Origin: Candidatus Zhuqueibacterota bacterium
GTDB lineage: Bacteria > SM23-31
NCBI GenBank assembly: GCA_022562855.1
Contig: JADFON010000165.1
Span: 1 to 5,361 of the forward strand
Direction of reading: 5' to 3'
DNA: 5,361 nt
The translations under genes were made by a program, and so were the position numbers. The notes beneath the pieces were generated by a model. The model was not told where the DNA came from. It saw nothing but the letters and a program-made list of their open reading frames with translations, and did no database searches. Below are positions 1,609 to 5,361 of this stretch, piece by piece (position 1 is the first letter of the stretch; each line of letters begins with the position of its first letter).

Positions 1609-3117
1609 ATGTGTGCGAAACCGGATGGAAGTTCGCTGGACTTGATGAGCCTTGCCAAAAGTTTTTCGACAATTCTTTATATAATAACCATGCTCTTATT
1701 TGCGCTCGGTTTTTTCATTCATTTAGCTTTTTACGCCGGAGCATTTCTGTTCGTTATGCTTCTGATTATCGATATCCGTTATAAGTATTTCCAAAAAAGC
1801 CACGCAATTCTCCGCAATTTCGGTCTTTTCGGGGCAATGCGTTACCTGATGGAGAGTATAGGTCCTGAATTACGTCAATACTGGATTGCGAGCGACGTCG
1901 AGGAAAAGCCCTTTTCCCGAAGAGAGCGTTCGGAAGTATACCGGTACGCAAAAAATATAGAAAGTACAGCCCCGTTTGGGACGTTGGAGAATTTACAATA
2001 TGGAATGATTCGTCATTCCATGTACCCTCTGCACAAAGAGGATATGCCTCAATTCTCATTGACATTTGGCGAGGAGAGGAATATCAAGAACGCCTATACG
2101 ATAACAAAGCCGTTTATGGTAAGCGCGATGAGTTTTGGCTCGCTTGGCGAGAACGCTGTGCGCGCGATTGCCCGCGGAGCAAAAAGAGGCGGGATACCGA
2201 TGTGTACGGGTGAAGGAGGATACCCGAAATATCACTTGATGGAGAAGCCTGATATAATATTCCAGATGGGTACGGCAAAATTCGGGGTGAGAAACGGCGA
2301 CGGGTCGCTCAATGATGAGAAATTGAGCTCCCTTGCAAGTGAAGAATGTATAAAAATGATCGAAATAAAGTTTTCACAGGGCGCTAAACCCGGAAAGGGC
2401 GGTCTGCTTCCGGGCGCAAAGGTGACCCCCGAAATTGCCGAAATCAGGGATGTTCCTGTGGGAAAAGACGTCTATTCGCCGCCGGGGCATATCGAATGCG
2501 ACAATGTAGAAAATACGGTTAAATTCATAAAGCGGGTACAGGAAGTATCAGATCTGCCGGTTGGCATAAAAATGTGTATTGGCAACGAGCATGAGTTTCA
2601 GGATTTTGTCCGTGAAATGCAAAAACAGGACGTTTTTCCCGACTATATCGATATCGACGGGGCAGAAGGCGGAACCGGAGCGGCGCCCCGAAGTTTTCTG
2701 GATTATGTCGGGATTCCCTTGTTTCATGCTCTCAAACTGGTCGTAAATATTCTGCATGAAGAAGGCGTAAGGGATAAAGTGAAATTGTTGGGAGCCGGTA
2801 AGCTCGTCAATCCTGCCCGACAGATCACGGCATTTTCTTTTGGCGTGGACGCCGTCTATACCGCGCGTGGATTTATGCTTGCGCTGGGATGCGTCCAGGC
2901 GCTGCAGTGCAACCAGGATACTTGTCCTGTCGGTATTACTACACATGACAAACATTTGCAAAGAGGTCTCGAAATAGAAGATAAGGCGCAGAGAGTAGAG
3001 CATTATATAAAAAATCTCGATAAAGCCTTGAAAGAGTTACTCGCCGCTACCGGTAATAAATCACTAAGAGAATTAAGAAATAAAAATATTATGTTCAGAC
3101 CGTGGGAGTATAATTGA
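1609..3117 (+). CDS. Membrane-anchored FMN-binding glutamate synthase family protein (GltB central-domain-like)
   Basis: This 502-residue protein corresponds to the FMN/iron-sulfur synthase domain of glutamate synthase, without the N-terminal glutaminase domain and without an adjacent GltD-type reductase. Two hydrophobic helices (about 20-38 and 40-56) should anchor it in the inner membrane. The TIM-barrel part follows, with SFGSLG (175-180), TGEGGY (200-205), QGAKPGKGG (257-265), the glycine-rich DIDGAEGGTGAAP (348-360), and Cys428, Cys434 and Cys439. Those cysteines have the C-x5-C-x4-C spacing of the glutamate synthase [3Fe-4S] cluster. The family would form glutamate from 2-oxoglutarate and ammonia using an electron donor, but for stand-alone membrane forms the reaction is unproven. 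The ATG at 1609 has AGGAA (1596-1600) eight bases upstream and keeps the whole first helix. It ends with tandem in-frame stops, TGA then TAA (3115-3120). No terminator hairpin follows. Confidence 0.9.
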   Translation: MCAKPDGSSLDLMSLAKSFSTILYIITMLLFALGFFIHLAFYAGAFLFVMLLIIDIRYKYFQKSHAILRNFGLFGAMRYLMESIGPELRQYWIASDVEEKPFSRRERSEVYRYAKNIESTAPFGTLENLQYGMIRHSMYPLHKEDMPQFSLTFGEERNIKNAYTITKPFMVSAMSFGSLGENAVRAIARGAKRGGIPMCTGEGGYPKYHLMEKPDIIFQMGTAKFGVRNGDGSLNDEKLSSLASEECIKMIEIKFSQGAKPGKGGLLPGAKVTPEIAEIRDVPVGKDVYSPPGHIECDNVENTVKFIKRVQEVSDLPVGIKMCIGNEHEFQDFVREMQKQDVFPDYIDIDGAEGGTGAAPRSFLDYVGIPLFHALKLVVNILHEEGVRDKVKLLGAGKLVNPARQITAFSFGVDAVYTARGFMLALGCVQALQCNQDTCPVGITTHDKHLQRGLEIEDKAQRVEHYIKNLDKALKELLAATGNKSLRELRNKNIMFRPWEYN

Positions 3118-3208: not shown

Positions 3209-4228
3209 ATGAAAATTTTATGCACCGGGATAAGCGGAATACAAAAACTCAAGTACATTGAGGAGCTTGTTCCGTTTCTTGAAAAAAATGGTCATAAGGC
3301 AAAGATTTTTGATACCTGGGAATACCTTTCTCTTGCGGGAAAAGACCTTGGTCAGGAAATAACCAAAGAAAAGATACTCGACCAGCACAATCTTGACGCC
3401 TTGAGGGCGATAGCATTCGAACGTATCTGTAATGAAATAGAAAATCTCCTCAAAAAAGACAAAAACATCCATATAATAATCTCGACTCACGCCTGTTTCA
3501 GATGGAACAAATTCCTGAGGTCGGGGTTCGACGTGCATTATCTTAACAGGATAGACCCGGATATTTATGTGAACTTTATCGATGATGTGCATAGAATAAA
3601 TGAAAATCTATCAAAAGATTCGCAATGGGCAAACCGGCTGAATTTGGAAGAGATAATAACCTGGCGGGATGAGGAGATGTTTATTACAGAAACACTTGCC
3701 ATGTTTCAAAAGAAAAAGTTCTTTTTATTTGCCACATGCGAGAACTTATCGAGCCTCGGCGCGATGATTCTGCATCCCGAAAGAAAGAAAATATACCTCA
3801 GCTTTCCAATAACGGCTATTCAGCAGGAACAGCCTGAACTGTTGGAAGAGGCAAACGCATTTGCAGATGGTTTGCGAAAAGACTTTATCGTCTTCAATCC
3901 TATGTCTATAAAGGATCTTGGAGGGATCGACAACCAGGGAAATATGGTTCAAAAACAGCTCAAAGCCGCTACCGTTTGGCGCGATTTTAAGCTGATTTCT
4001 CAAAGCGACATAGTGGCAGTCTACTATCCGGTGGAAAAGAATTCTCCCGGCGTCAACCAGGAGATCATGTACGCCTTTACGCATGGCAAAGATGTCTACC
4101 TGTATTATCCGAAGCCCTTTGGTCTCAGTCCTTTTTGGGACCCGGAGATTGCCGTAACAAAGTCATTCGATGATCTGAATGATTTTAAGACCTATCTTAA
4201 ATCACTCGCTAATAATAAGAAAAAATAA
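3209..4228 (+). CDS. Two-domain protein: degenerate adenylate-kinase-like P-loop domain fused to nucleoside 2-deoxyribosyltransferase / dNMP N-glycosidase-like domain
   Basis: No close named relative is recognised; the call rests on motifs in 339 residues. Residues 1-190 resemble a small-molecule kinase: strand MKILCTG, then G7-x-x-G10-x-x-K13 at P-loop spacing, but Gln12 replaces glycine and Leu14 replaces Ser/Thr. A second strand ends in STH (92-94), and WRDEE (152-156) could supply a lid arginine. Residues 193-338 fit the nucleoside 2-deoxyribosyltransferase superfamily: Tyr196 in KIYLSFP, Asp259 in WRDF, Asp267 in QSDIVAVYYP, Ser279 and Glu285 in NSPGVNQEIMYA, then GKDVYLYYP. Asp259-to-Asp267 and Ser279-to-Glu285 spacings match Rcl/DNPH1, where Glu is the nucleophile and Ser contacts the 5'-phosphate; true nucleoside transferases have Asp there. 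This favours cleavage of the N-glycosidic bond of a deoxynucleotide (inference). The arginine-glycine phosphate loop of Rcl is not seen. The ATG at 3209 has only a weak AGG 11 bases upstream. Confidence 0.7.
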   Translation: MKILCTGISGIQKLKYIEELVPFLEKNGHKAKIFDTWEYLSLAGKDLGQEITKEKILDQHNLDALRAIAFERICNEIENLLKKDKNIHIIISTHACFRWNKFLRSGFDVHYLNRIDPDIYVNFIDDVHRINENLSKDSQWANRLNLEEIITWRDEEMFITETLAMFQKKKFFLFATCENLSSLGAMILHPERKKIYLSFPITAIQQEQPELLEEANAFADGLRKDFIVFNPMSIKDLGGIDNQGNMVQKQLKAATVWRDFKLISQSDIVAVYYPVEKNSPGVNQEIMYAFTHGKDVYLYYPKPFGLSPFWDPEIAVTKSFDDLNDFKTYLKSLANNKKK

Positions 4229-4266
4229 AACACTCTTTTTGATGTGCAAATCCGGGATTTTCATTA

Positions 4267-4962
4267 ATGTCACGAGTAATAATCGGAATAGGACATAAGG
4301 CGAGGCAGGGAAAGGATACCGCCGCAGAGCACTTGCAAAAAATATTCAAATGCACAATAATCCATTTTGCAGATTCTCTCTACGAAGAATGCCGTAATGC
4401 AACGATTTTGTACAAAGAGGGAGGTAAGTCCGGTGAGATTGCATCTGCGCTGTATCTGAAAACAAATGATGAAGATTATTATCATTTCACTGAATTCAAT
4501 GATACCATTACCGGGTGGATAAAGAAAAACGGGGTACGGATTGCGGATCTGCCCTATGATGCAGATCTGAGATATGACGGTATGACGGAAAAAGACGGAA
4601 CGTTGCTGCAATTCTGGGGAACTGAGTTTCGGAGAAAGGAATTTAACTGGGATTATTGGGTAGATATAGTCAAGAAAGAAATAGAGGCAAATCCCGACCG
4701 CGATTATATTATACCCGACACCAGGTTCAAAAATGAAGCGAAGATGATAAGTGCAATGGGTGGTGTGGTTTGGAAGATCAACCGTACCGGGTATACAGCG
4801 AAAGACCGCGACCCAAATCACATGAGTGAAGTAGATCTTGACGATTGGGAATTTGACACGGAAATTATTAACGACGGGTCGATTTCCGAATTAAATGAAA
4901 AAGCAGTAACACTGTTTAGAAAAATGAAAGGGCTGCCTGATGGAAACATCACGGGTAAGTAA
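4267..4962 (+). CDS. Deoxynucleoside monophosphate kinase, phage type
   Basis: A cytoplasmic P-loop kinase that converts dNMPs to dNDPs with ATP, related to T4 gene 1 kinase. The 231 residues begin with a beta strand and the phosphate loop GHKARQGKDT (9-18). GKDT is typical of this family, and the loop has five rather than four residues between its two glycines. Other family signatures are LLQFWGTEFRR (113-123) followed by YW (130-131), the Walker B-like strand IIPDTRFKNEAKMI (148-161) with Asp151 and Arg153, GGVVWKINR (165-173), His185 in HMSE, and the C-terminal IINDGSISELNEKA (200-213). Which dNMPs it accepts cannot be read. It starts 38 bp after the preceding stop, with GGGA (4254-4257) nine bases before the ATG. 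Its end overlaps the dCMP deaminase start by 23 bp, so the two are probably co-translated. Such kinases are common in phages, so its presence beside ordinary metabolic genes suggests past acquisition. Confidence 0.85.
   Translation: MSRVIIGIGHKARQGKDTAAEHLQKIFKCTIIHFADSLYEECRNATILYKEGGKSGEIASALYLKTNDEDYYHFTEFNDTITGWIKKNGVRIADLPYDADLRYDGMTEKDGTLLQFWGTEFRRKEFNWDYWVDIVKKEIEANPDRDYIIPDTRFKNEAKMISAMGGVVWKINRTGYTAKDRDPNHMSEVDLDDWEFDTEIINDGSISELNEKAVTLFRKMKGLPDGNITGK
4927..4932 (+). promoter_or_regulatory. Ribosome binding site for the dCMP deaminase, inside the kinase gene
   Basis: AAAGGG lies seven bases before the ATG at 4940 and within the last codons of the kinase gene. It is the best Shine-Dalgarno match of the three-gene group and decides the deaminase start, which otherwise has no upstream room free of coding sequence. 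Confidence 0.6.
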
Positions 4963-5361
4963 GGATGAATATTATTTAAGAATTGCTGAGAATATATTTG
5001 ACCGTTCCACCTGTCTGCGGCGTCACTTTGGCGCGGTCATTGTCAACAATGACGAAATTGTCGCAACCGGTTACAACGGCGCTCCCCGGAAGGTAAAGTC
5101 ATCGATGGAACACGGATTTTGCTGGAGGAAAGCTCACAACGTTCCTCACGGCAAGAACTATGAACTCTGCCGTTCGGTTCATGCGGAACAAAACGCGATG
5201 ATACAAGCATCCCGCCGTGATATGCTTGGTTCAACGTTGTATCTCGTTGGTGAAAATCCTGACAAGAGCCTTGTGGATGCGTTCCCCTGCGTCATCTGTC
5301 TCAGGATGATAATCAATGCCGGGATAGAGAGAATCGTCTTCCGGAAAGCCGACGGAAATAT
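4940..5361 (+). CDS. dCMP deaminase, C-terminus cut by window edge
   Basis: Zinc-dependent hydrolytic deaminase converting dCMP to dUMP, the precursor for thymidylate synthase. The frame, offset by one from the kinase, is open for 140 codons to the right edge. Landmarks: TCLRRHFGAVIV (24-35), GYNGAPR (44-50) typical of dCMP deaminases, LCRSVHAEQNAM (76-87) with zinc ligand His81 and proton shuttle Glu83, and PCVIC (116-120) with zinc ligands Cys117 and Cys120, followed by IINAGIERIVF (124-134). Cys25, Cys61 and Cys77 may hold a second, structural zinc as in T4 dCMP deaminase (inference). All catalytic residues are present and probably only a short tail is missing. The start is the ATG at 4940, preceded by AAAGGG. 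The 23-bp overlap with the kinase implies translational coupling. The GYNG and ELCRSVHAEQNA motifs argue against cytidine, tRNA-adenosine or riboflavin-type deaminases. Confidence 0.93.
   Translation, partial: METSRVSKDEYYLRIAENIFDRSTCLRRHFGAVIVNNDEIVATGYNGAPRKVKSSMEHGFCWRKAHNVPHGKNYELCRSVHAEQNAMIQASRRDMLGSTLYLVGENPDKSLVDAFPCVICLRMIINAGIERIVFRKADGN

Follow-up and report, generated by a model that had tools for sequence, protein, structure and literature searches.

A predicted operon for supplying and clearing deoxynucleoside monophosphates includes a candidate replacement for thymidylate kinase

The window analyzed here is a 5,361-bp stretch of DNA that makes up an entire contig (G000:C171; JADFON010000165.1) of a 2.5-Mb metagenome-assembled genome (MAG; 491 contigs, 80% complete) from a Candidatus Zhuqueibacterota bacterium. 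It carries three tandem genes encoding a fusion of an adenylate-kinase-like domain to a domain of the nucleoside deoxyribosyltransferase (NDT) superfamily, a T4-type deoxynucleoside monophosphate (dNMP) kinase (dNMPK), and a dCMP deaminase. On balance, we lean toward the view that this operon controls both the supply and the clearance of dNMPs, with the kinase and deaminase forming a core pair that makes thymidine nucleotides and the fusion hydrolyzing dNMPs. The most consequential point, which a first-pass annotation of the sequence did not raise, is that the T4-type kinase appears to have replaced thymidylate kinase (Tmk) across the whole bacterial class represented by the window. The three open reading frames (ORFs) are:

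3209..4228, + strand: fusion gene, 339 amino acids, with an AdkA-like degenerate kinase domain and an NDT-superfamily (DNPH1-like) domain.
4267..4962, + strand: T4-type deoxynucleoside monophosphate kinase, 231 amino acids, the proposed dTMP kinase of the cell (PF21448, phrog_139, 1dek; Tmk not detected in the class).
4940..5359, + strand: dCMP deaminase, at least 140 amino acids, cut by the contig end (PF00383, phrog_174, PDB 2hvv at 1e-16; HAE and PCxxC zinc motifs).

The fusion and kinase genes are separated by 38 bp (4229-4266), and the kinase and deaminase genes overlap by 23 bp (4940-4962), exactly as the first-pass annotation had described. The deaminase frame is open at the contig end and hence incomplete; its relative in G002, from another genus within the window's family, is 175 amino acids long. 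The fusion, kinase, and deaminase genes lie in the same order in G002 (JANQEH010000013.1, L013), spaced by 0 and -4 bp, and because this order is kept at 73% (fusion), 60% (kinase), and 78% (deaminase) identity, the arrangement is more than chance.

The kinase matches PF21448 at 2.8e-13 (50.5 bits against a cutoff of 27.1), phrog_139 at 1.3e-37, and the T4 dNMPK structure 1dek at 2e-7. The T4 catalytic motifs (the P-loop RxGKDT, PDTR...E, H.[ST]E, and NDGS) all align, and the D-x-R-x-x-x-E of the dNMP site is present, with D151, R153, and E157 invariant in the homologue alignment (A5). The deaminase matches PF00383 at 2e-20 and phrog_174 at 1e-35, and its zinc motifs, H81-A-E83, C117, and C120, are invariant in the corresponding alignment (A6).

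We sampled 145 genomes, six of them from the window's class (MAGs 63-90% complete), and found overlapping dNMPK and dCMP deaminase genes in four of the six, representing four genera. Two of these genomes, G004 and G005, belong to another family of the class; there the kinase and deaminase genes overlap in the same way, with no fusion upstream and a chloride-channel gene downstream, and the encoded proteins are 56-60% (kinase) and 64-66% (deaminase) identical to those of the window. The fusion, in turn, adjoins a dNMPK or dCMP deaminase gene only in the window's family among the loci listed: in the window itself and in one of 80 loci from genome_contigs. The three genes had been read as a single conserved cassette, with fusion homologues expected beside the other two genes; instead, two units have to be separated, a class-wide pair and an upstream fusion. 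Because only the window's family has the fusion beside either gene, the pair is, on this evidence, the older unit, which the fusion joined in one family.

Thymidylate kinase is regarded as near-universal in bacteria. Calling Tmk by a TIGR00041 match at E<=1e-10, we found it in 136 of the 145 genomes and in 136 of the 139 outside the window's class. No canonical Tmk was detected at this threshold in any of the six class genomes, which are among nine Tmk-less genomes in the sample, and a search confined to the class, in which all first-look candidates were scored, yielded none at the curated cutoff. The weak class matches to PF02223 and TIGR00041 that were inspected proved to be deoxynucleoside kinases encoded beside folK, in the fol cluster, and another weak match is part of a larger multidomain acyltransferase-kinase-like protein. 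If Tmk were present, the probability that incompleteness hides it in all six MAGs would be about 1e-4, assuming independence and a 2% miss rate. Of the nine Tmk-less genomes, five had a strong T4-type dNMPK (E<=1e-25, a split picked after the table was seen), as against two of the 136 Tmk-bearing ones (Fisher 5e-6; 0.004 when the class is treated as one lineage). Because canonical Tmk was detected in none of the six class genomes versus 136 of the 139 others, the T4-type kinase is most likely the cell's dTMP kinase, by analogy with P. putida KT2440, in which the T4-related dNMPK PP_1964 is the proven sole, essential dTMP kinase (PMC10653934). A class without detectable Tmk and with a phage-type dNMPK co-transcribed with dCMP deaminase in a predicted operon would extend that single proven case to a fixed, ancient replacement.

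Several observations pull the other way. Within the class, neither Tmk nor a strong dNMPK match was found in G001 or G003; outside it, G032 and G066, one of them 100% complete, have neither Tmk at 1e-10 nor a strong T4-type dNMPK; and two dNMPK-bearing genomes retain Tmk. In addition, the controls B. subtilis and Bacteroides ihuae gave no Tmk match at 1e-10, and a divergent Tmk may thus escape this threshold. The correlation between Tmk and dNMPK is therefore imperfect, and is drawn in part from MAGs that are 63-90% complete.

The remaining steps toward dTMP fit the proposed role of the kinase. ThyX was found in the window's own genome (G000) and in G003, G004, and G005, and its presence in G000 would, on metabolic grounds, close the route dCMP -> dUMP -> dTMP -> dTDP. 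Neither dUTPase nor Dcd (dCTP deaminase) was detected in these four genomes, so in G000, G004, and G005 no source of dUMP other than the deaminase of the pair was detected. PF00692 matches in G001 and G002 that suggested dUTPase are actually dCTP deaminases. In G002, ThyX was not found; this genome encodes a divergent ThyA-family protein of 344 amino acids (L136:1468-2502, PF00303 5e-21) and is the lone class genome with a PF00303 match. In G003, two ThyX matches fall in one 465-amino-acid frame (G003:C137:4288-5583, L134/L135), possibly a tandem ThyX fusion.

We turned to the fusion protein itself, counting residue conservation over 29 homologues. Pfam searches with the single sequence were weak (AAA_17 at 2e-4 and Nuc_deoxyrib_tr at 8e-4, both under cutoff), and among the 29 family members 27 match AAA_17 and 26 match Nuc_deoxyrib_tr (PF05014) at E<=0.01. 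An AlphaFold model built with the 29 homologues has two domains (pLDDT 91.9, pTM 0.89). The features of the fusion gene are:

3209..3778, + strand: N-terminal archaeal-adenylate-kinase-like domain, residues 1-190 (6ln3 profile E 1e-12; Z 21.5).
3227..3253, + strand: degenerate Walker A (residues 7-15, GISGIQKLK), in which none of 29 homologues has Thr or Ser at the Mg-binding position.
3779..4225, + strand: C-terminal NDT/DNPH1-like domain, residues 191-339 (PF05014 in 26 of 29 members; structural Z).
3794..3796, + strand: Tyr196 codon (DNPH1 Y24, MilB F17; 2'-deoxy preference), invariant in 29 of 29.
3983..3985, + strand: Asp259 codon (DNPH1 D80), invariant in 29 of 29.
4043..4063, + strand: S279-P-G-V-N-Q-E285, phosphate-binding Ser (DNPH1 S98, MilB S97) and nucleophilic Glu (DNPH1 E104); S279 and E285 invariant in 29 of 29.
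4127..4129, + strand: Ser307 codon, candidate for DNPH1 S128' (second-subunit phosphate contact), invariant in 29 of 29.

Residues 1-190 of the model match the archaeal adenylate kinase 6ln3 over their whole length (VIA). The first-pass annotation had recognized a kinase-like domain here, and the fold is indeed kinase-like, but it missed the degenerate active site: both Mg-binding positions are lost in all 29 homologues, with K, L, G, R, N, I, V, or E in place of the Walker A Thr/Ser and S, G, A, or T in place of the Walker B Asp. The simplest reading of these sequences, and the most likely one, is that the domain binds nucleotide without phosphorylating it, and it presumably has a regulatory role for the glycosidase to which it is joined. 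Alternatively, the domain could phosphorylate dNMPs or AMP through an unusual active site, which would give the fusion two activities. Methanococcal AdkA already departs from the canonical Walker A Lys (GVPGVGGTT), and many N-domain residues are invariant (H94, F97-R98-W99, W152, and E156), but with both Mg-binding positions gone throughout the family we give this alternative little credence.

Residues 190-337 of the model match the NDT 7o62 (Z 15.9), human DNPH1 (Z 14.6), and MilB (Z 13.5; VIA). The NDT fold by itself does not separate hydrolases from transferases, for which residues are more informative; we mapped catalytic residues by sequence motifs and profile alignment, taking the roles of the DNPH1 residues (the triad Y24, D80, and E104, plus S98 and S128') from PMC10603095. 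The Tyr-Asp-Glu triad is matched by Y196, D259, and E285, with Y196 placed by a shared first-strand motif. The 5'-phosphate-binding Ser98 is matched by S279, six residues before the catalytic Glu and aligned with the SPG motif of MilB, and S307 lies 22 residues past the Glu, versus 24 in DNPH1, a correspondence of sequence position only. The residue six before the Glu is Ser in all 29 fusions versus Asp in the aligned nucleoside NDTs 7o62 and 7m5h, so that the Asp or Asn specific to nucleoside-using enzymes is missing from the family; this switch sets the fusion NDT domain apart from nucleoside-using NDTs. Tyr in place of MilB Phe17 predicts 2'-deoxy substrates. The invariant triad and phosphate Ser support the dNMP chemistry proposed earlier for the three products, all of which are predicted to act on dNMPs.

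Two features of the domain count against a DNPH1-like hydrolase: by motif alignment, the position of DNPH1 Arg30 is Thr or Ser in all 29 members, and the E55-H56 motif of DNPH1 could not be recognized in the fusion sequences. With these differences, the assignment of base specificity, and of hydrolysis over base transfer, is tentative. We therefore also considered that the fusion is a phosphodeoxyribosyltransferase that, like phage DmtZ, moves the deoxyribose 5-phosphate of a dNMP to a free base, serving base salvage and not dNMP destruction. We kept this possibility because Arg30 is not conserved and because P231, an invariant Pro in an F-D/N-P motif after the second NDT-domain strand, may be the equivalent of a Pro described as conserved in transferases and DmtZ (PMC12884076); 7o62, which the domain matches best in structure, is also a deoxyribosyltransferase. 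However, the equation of P231 with the transferase Pro is only putative, and deoC genes neighboring some fusions fit a deoxyribose 5-phosphate product, that is, hydrolysis. We regard base transfer as unlikely, and dNMP hydrolysis is the activity we favor.

The fusion was found in seven of the 145 sampled genomes (G000 included), one of them marginal. Its range takes in archaea and six or more bacterial lineages, with at least 80 genome_contigs loci spanning Bacillota, Caldisericota, Poribacteria, Planctomycetota, Gemmatimonadota, other bacteria, and several archaeal phyla. A Gemmatimonadota copy that lies 0.5 kb from deoC is the sister of the window's family in the phylogeny of the fusions (SH-aLRT 95). 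Neighboring genes, confirmed by Pfam and tblastn, include deoC at a distance of 0.5 kb in two Gemmatimonadota-type loci and of 1.6 kb in a MAG from Planctomycetota, dcd in Thermoprotei at 69 nt, a gene for a PnrA-type substrate-binding protein (of a nucleoside-type transporter) at 62 nt in an archaeon, and an inorganic pyrophosphatase gene at 0.4 kb in Bathyarchaeota; these neighbors are suggestive only. Weighing against the favored reading, the fusions of Poribacteria, Bacillota, and Caldisericota, which are most of the homologues, have no recognized nucleotide gene directly adjoining; in some Poribacteria there is a uridine-kinase-like match at 4-5 kb. Other neighbors were seen as well. In Caldisericota (L029, L030, L036), the fusion starts a few bases past the end of an anti-sigma-like gene that is preceded by an ECF (extracytoplasmic function) sigma factor gene, and in some Poribacteria (L042, L055) ORFs of ~2650-2750 amino acids and an outer-membrane-like gene lie upstream.

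We next asked whether the bacterium might recently have acquired the three genes together as a nucleotide block from a phage. Phages commonly carry dNMPK (1103 phage records), and the kinases of the class fall with three from viral contigs (SH-aLRT 91), although in a weakly resolved tree with 35 of 51 branches open. However, the pair is class-wide, at the identities given above for the other family, and in G004 and G005 its neighbor is a chloride-channel gene. No fusion relative was found in two scans of 2.9 million viral contigs or in plasmids, and one phage record matches the fusion at 32% coverage only. A deaminase gene lies within the flanks of the viral dNMPK in four of 80 viral loci, the four being near-identical, and the fusion in none. 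The phage block suggested by the first-pass annotation is thus upheld for the grouping of the kinase but not for the deaminase or the fusion, and recent capture of all three genes seems improbable. An ancient capture of the kinase alone is likely; with the tree so poorly resolved, we do not claim a phage origin for it. Separately, in one viral contig (IMGVR_UViG_3300037840_000148, L140:4007-4949) the dNMPK gene overlaps a separate NDT-like gene by 8 nt (PF05014 5e-4) that has Arg six residues before the Glu. It is the lone NDT-like gene beside dNMPK in the 80 viral loci by iterative search, and an independent pairing of both activities.

Nucleotide depletion by deaminases is a known defense strategy, and the cassette could in principle act against phages by exhausting dNTP precursors during infection. 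In keeping with this precedent, the deaminase matches the PADLOC dCTPase model and NF041025, a family of anti-phage dCTP deaminases. The NF041025 match, however, scores 69.8 bits where the cutoff is 400 and is confined to the deaminase core, and the intact G002 copy is just 175 amino acids long. The dCTPase match, like the PADLOC and NCBIfam matches to BrxC (13.6 and 19.5 bits), is partial or far under cutoff, and no PADLOC family was convincing. No defense family fits the fusion, no phage or defense genes were recognized by eye in the G002 neighborhood, and the pair is spread over four genera of one class. A defense role is very unlikely, and the enrichment in defense islands or prophages that had been envisaged earlier finds no support in these neighbors or in the viral contigs.

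We conclude by setting out how the operon might work. The deaminase would convert dCMP to dUMP, ThyX, encoded elsewhere, would convert dUMP to dTMP, and the T4-type kinase would phosphorylate dTMP, and probably other dNMPs, to diphosphates, replacing canonical thymidylate kinase. The fusion, added upstream in the window's family, would split dNMPs at the N-glycosidic bond through a double-displacement mechanism to give a base and deoxyribose 5-phosphate, with Glu285 as nucleophile, Asp259 as acid/base, and Tyr196, Ser279, and probably Ser307' holding the 5'-phosphate. It would compete with the kinase for dNMPs and so set or clean the pool, and nucleotide binding by its N-domain would control or feed the glycosidase. 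We infer all of the enzyme activities, as well as the essential role of the kinase. More tentatively, and with less confidence than we place in the operon's general role, the fusion may represent a cellular family, found in archaea and several uncultured bacterial phyla, in which a non-phosphorylating adenylate kinase domain serves as nucleotide sensor or substrate gate for a dNMP N-glycosidase, wired in a class that appears to be Tmk-less into the operon of a replacement dTMP kinase; a single transcript would then set both the fate of dNMPs (phosphorylation or destruction) and their source (deamination). The fusion would also offer a test case for a kinase fold that seems to have been taken on as the non-catalytic partner of a nucleotide-cleaving enzyme.

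Elsewhere in the window, a gene for an FMN-binding glutamate synthase-like protein (1609-3117) lies upstream of the three genes, as does a class I/II aminotransferase gene on the opposite strand. An Rfam scan of the window gave no match.

No description of an adenylate kinase-NDT fusion was found in the literature searched, but its parts can be compared with known systems. The C-terminal domain resembles human and rat DNPH1 (Rcl) in fold (Z <=14.6), in the Tyr-Asp-Glu triad, and in the 5'-phosphate Ser, with a Ser 22 residues past the Glu as a candidate for S128', but differs in the Thr or Ser at R30, the unrecognized E55-H56, and the added adenylate-kinase-like domain. With the CMP N-glycosidase MilB it shares the SPG...E motif and its phosphate-binding Ser, but MilB has Phe17 where the fusion family has Tyr. 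DmtZ of PurZ0 phages (PMC12884076) is likewise an NDT-superfamily protein that acts on dNMP and has dUTPase-like genes or fusions as partners; it is viral, carries Asn in its triad, and is dUTPase-fused in some phages, whereas the fusion is cellular, has Asp, and is partnered with an AdkA-like domain. That domain has the whole fold of archaeal AdkA (PDB 6ln3, 1nks, 1kht), but has lost both Mg-binding positions and has new invariant FRW and W-x-x-E-E motifs. The kinase of the pair aligns with phage T4 gp1 dNMPK (1dek) in all four catalytic motifs, but the region between the P-loop and residue 113 is unaligned, with an insert-like stretch. Finally, like PP_1964 of P. putida (PMC10653934), it is a T4-type dNMPK in a bacterial chromosome that appears to take the place of Tmk; PP_1964, however, lies on a genomic island that broke tmk, whereas in the window's class the kinase occurs class-wide, sharing an operon with dCMP deaminase, and no tmk was detected.

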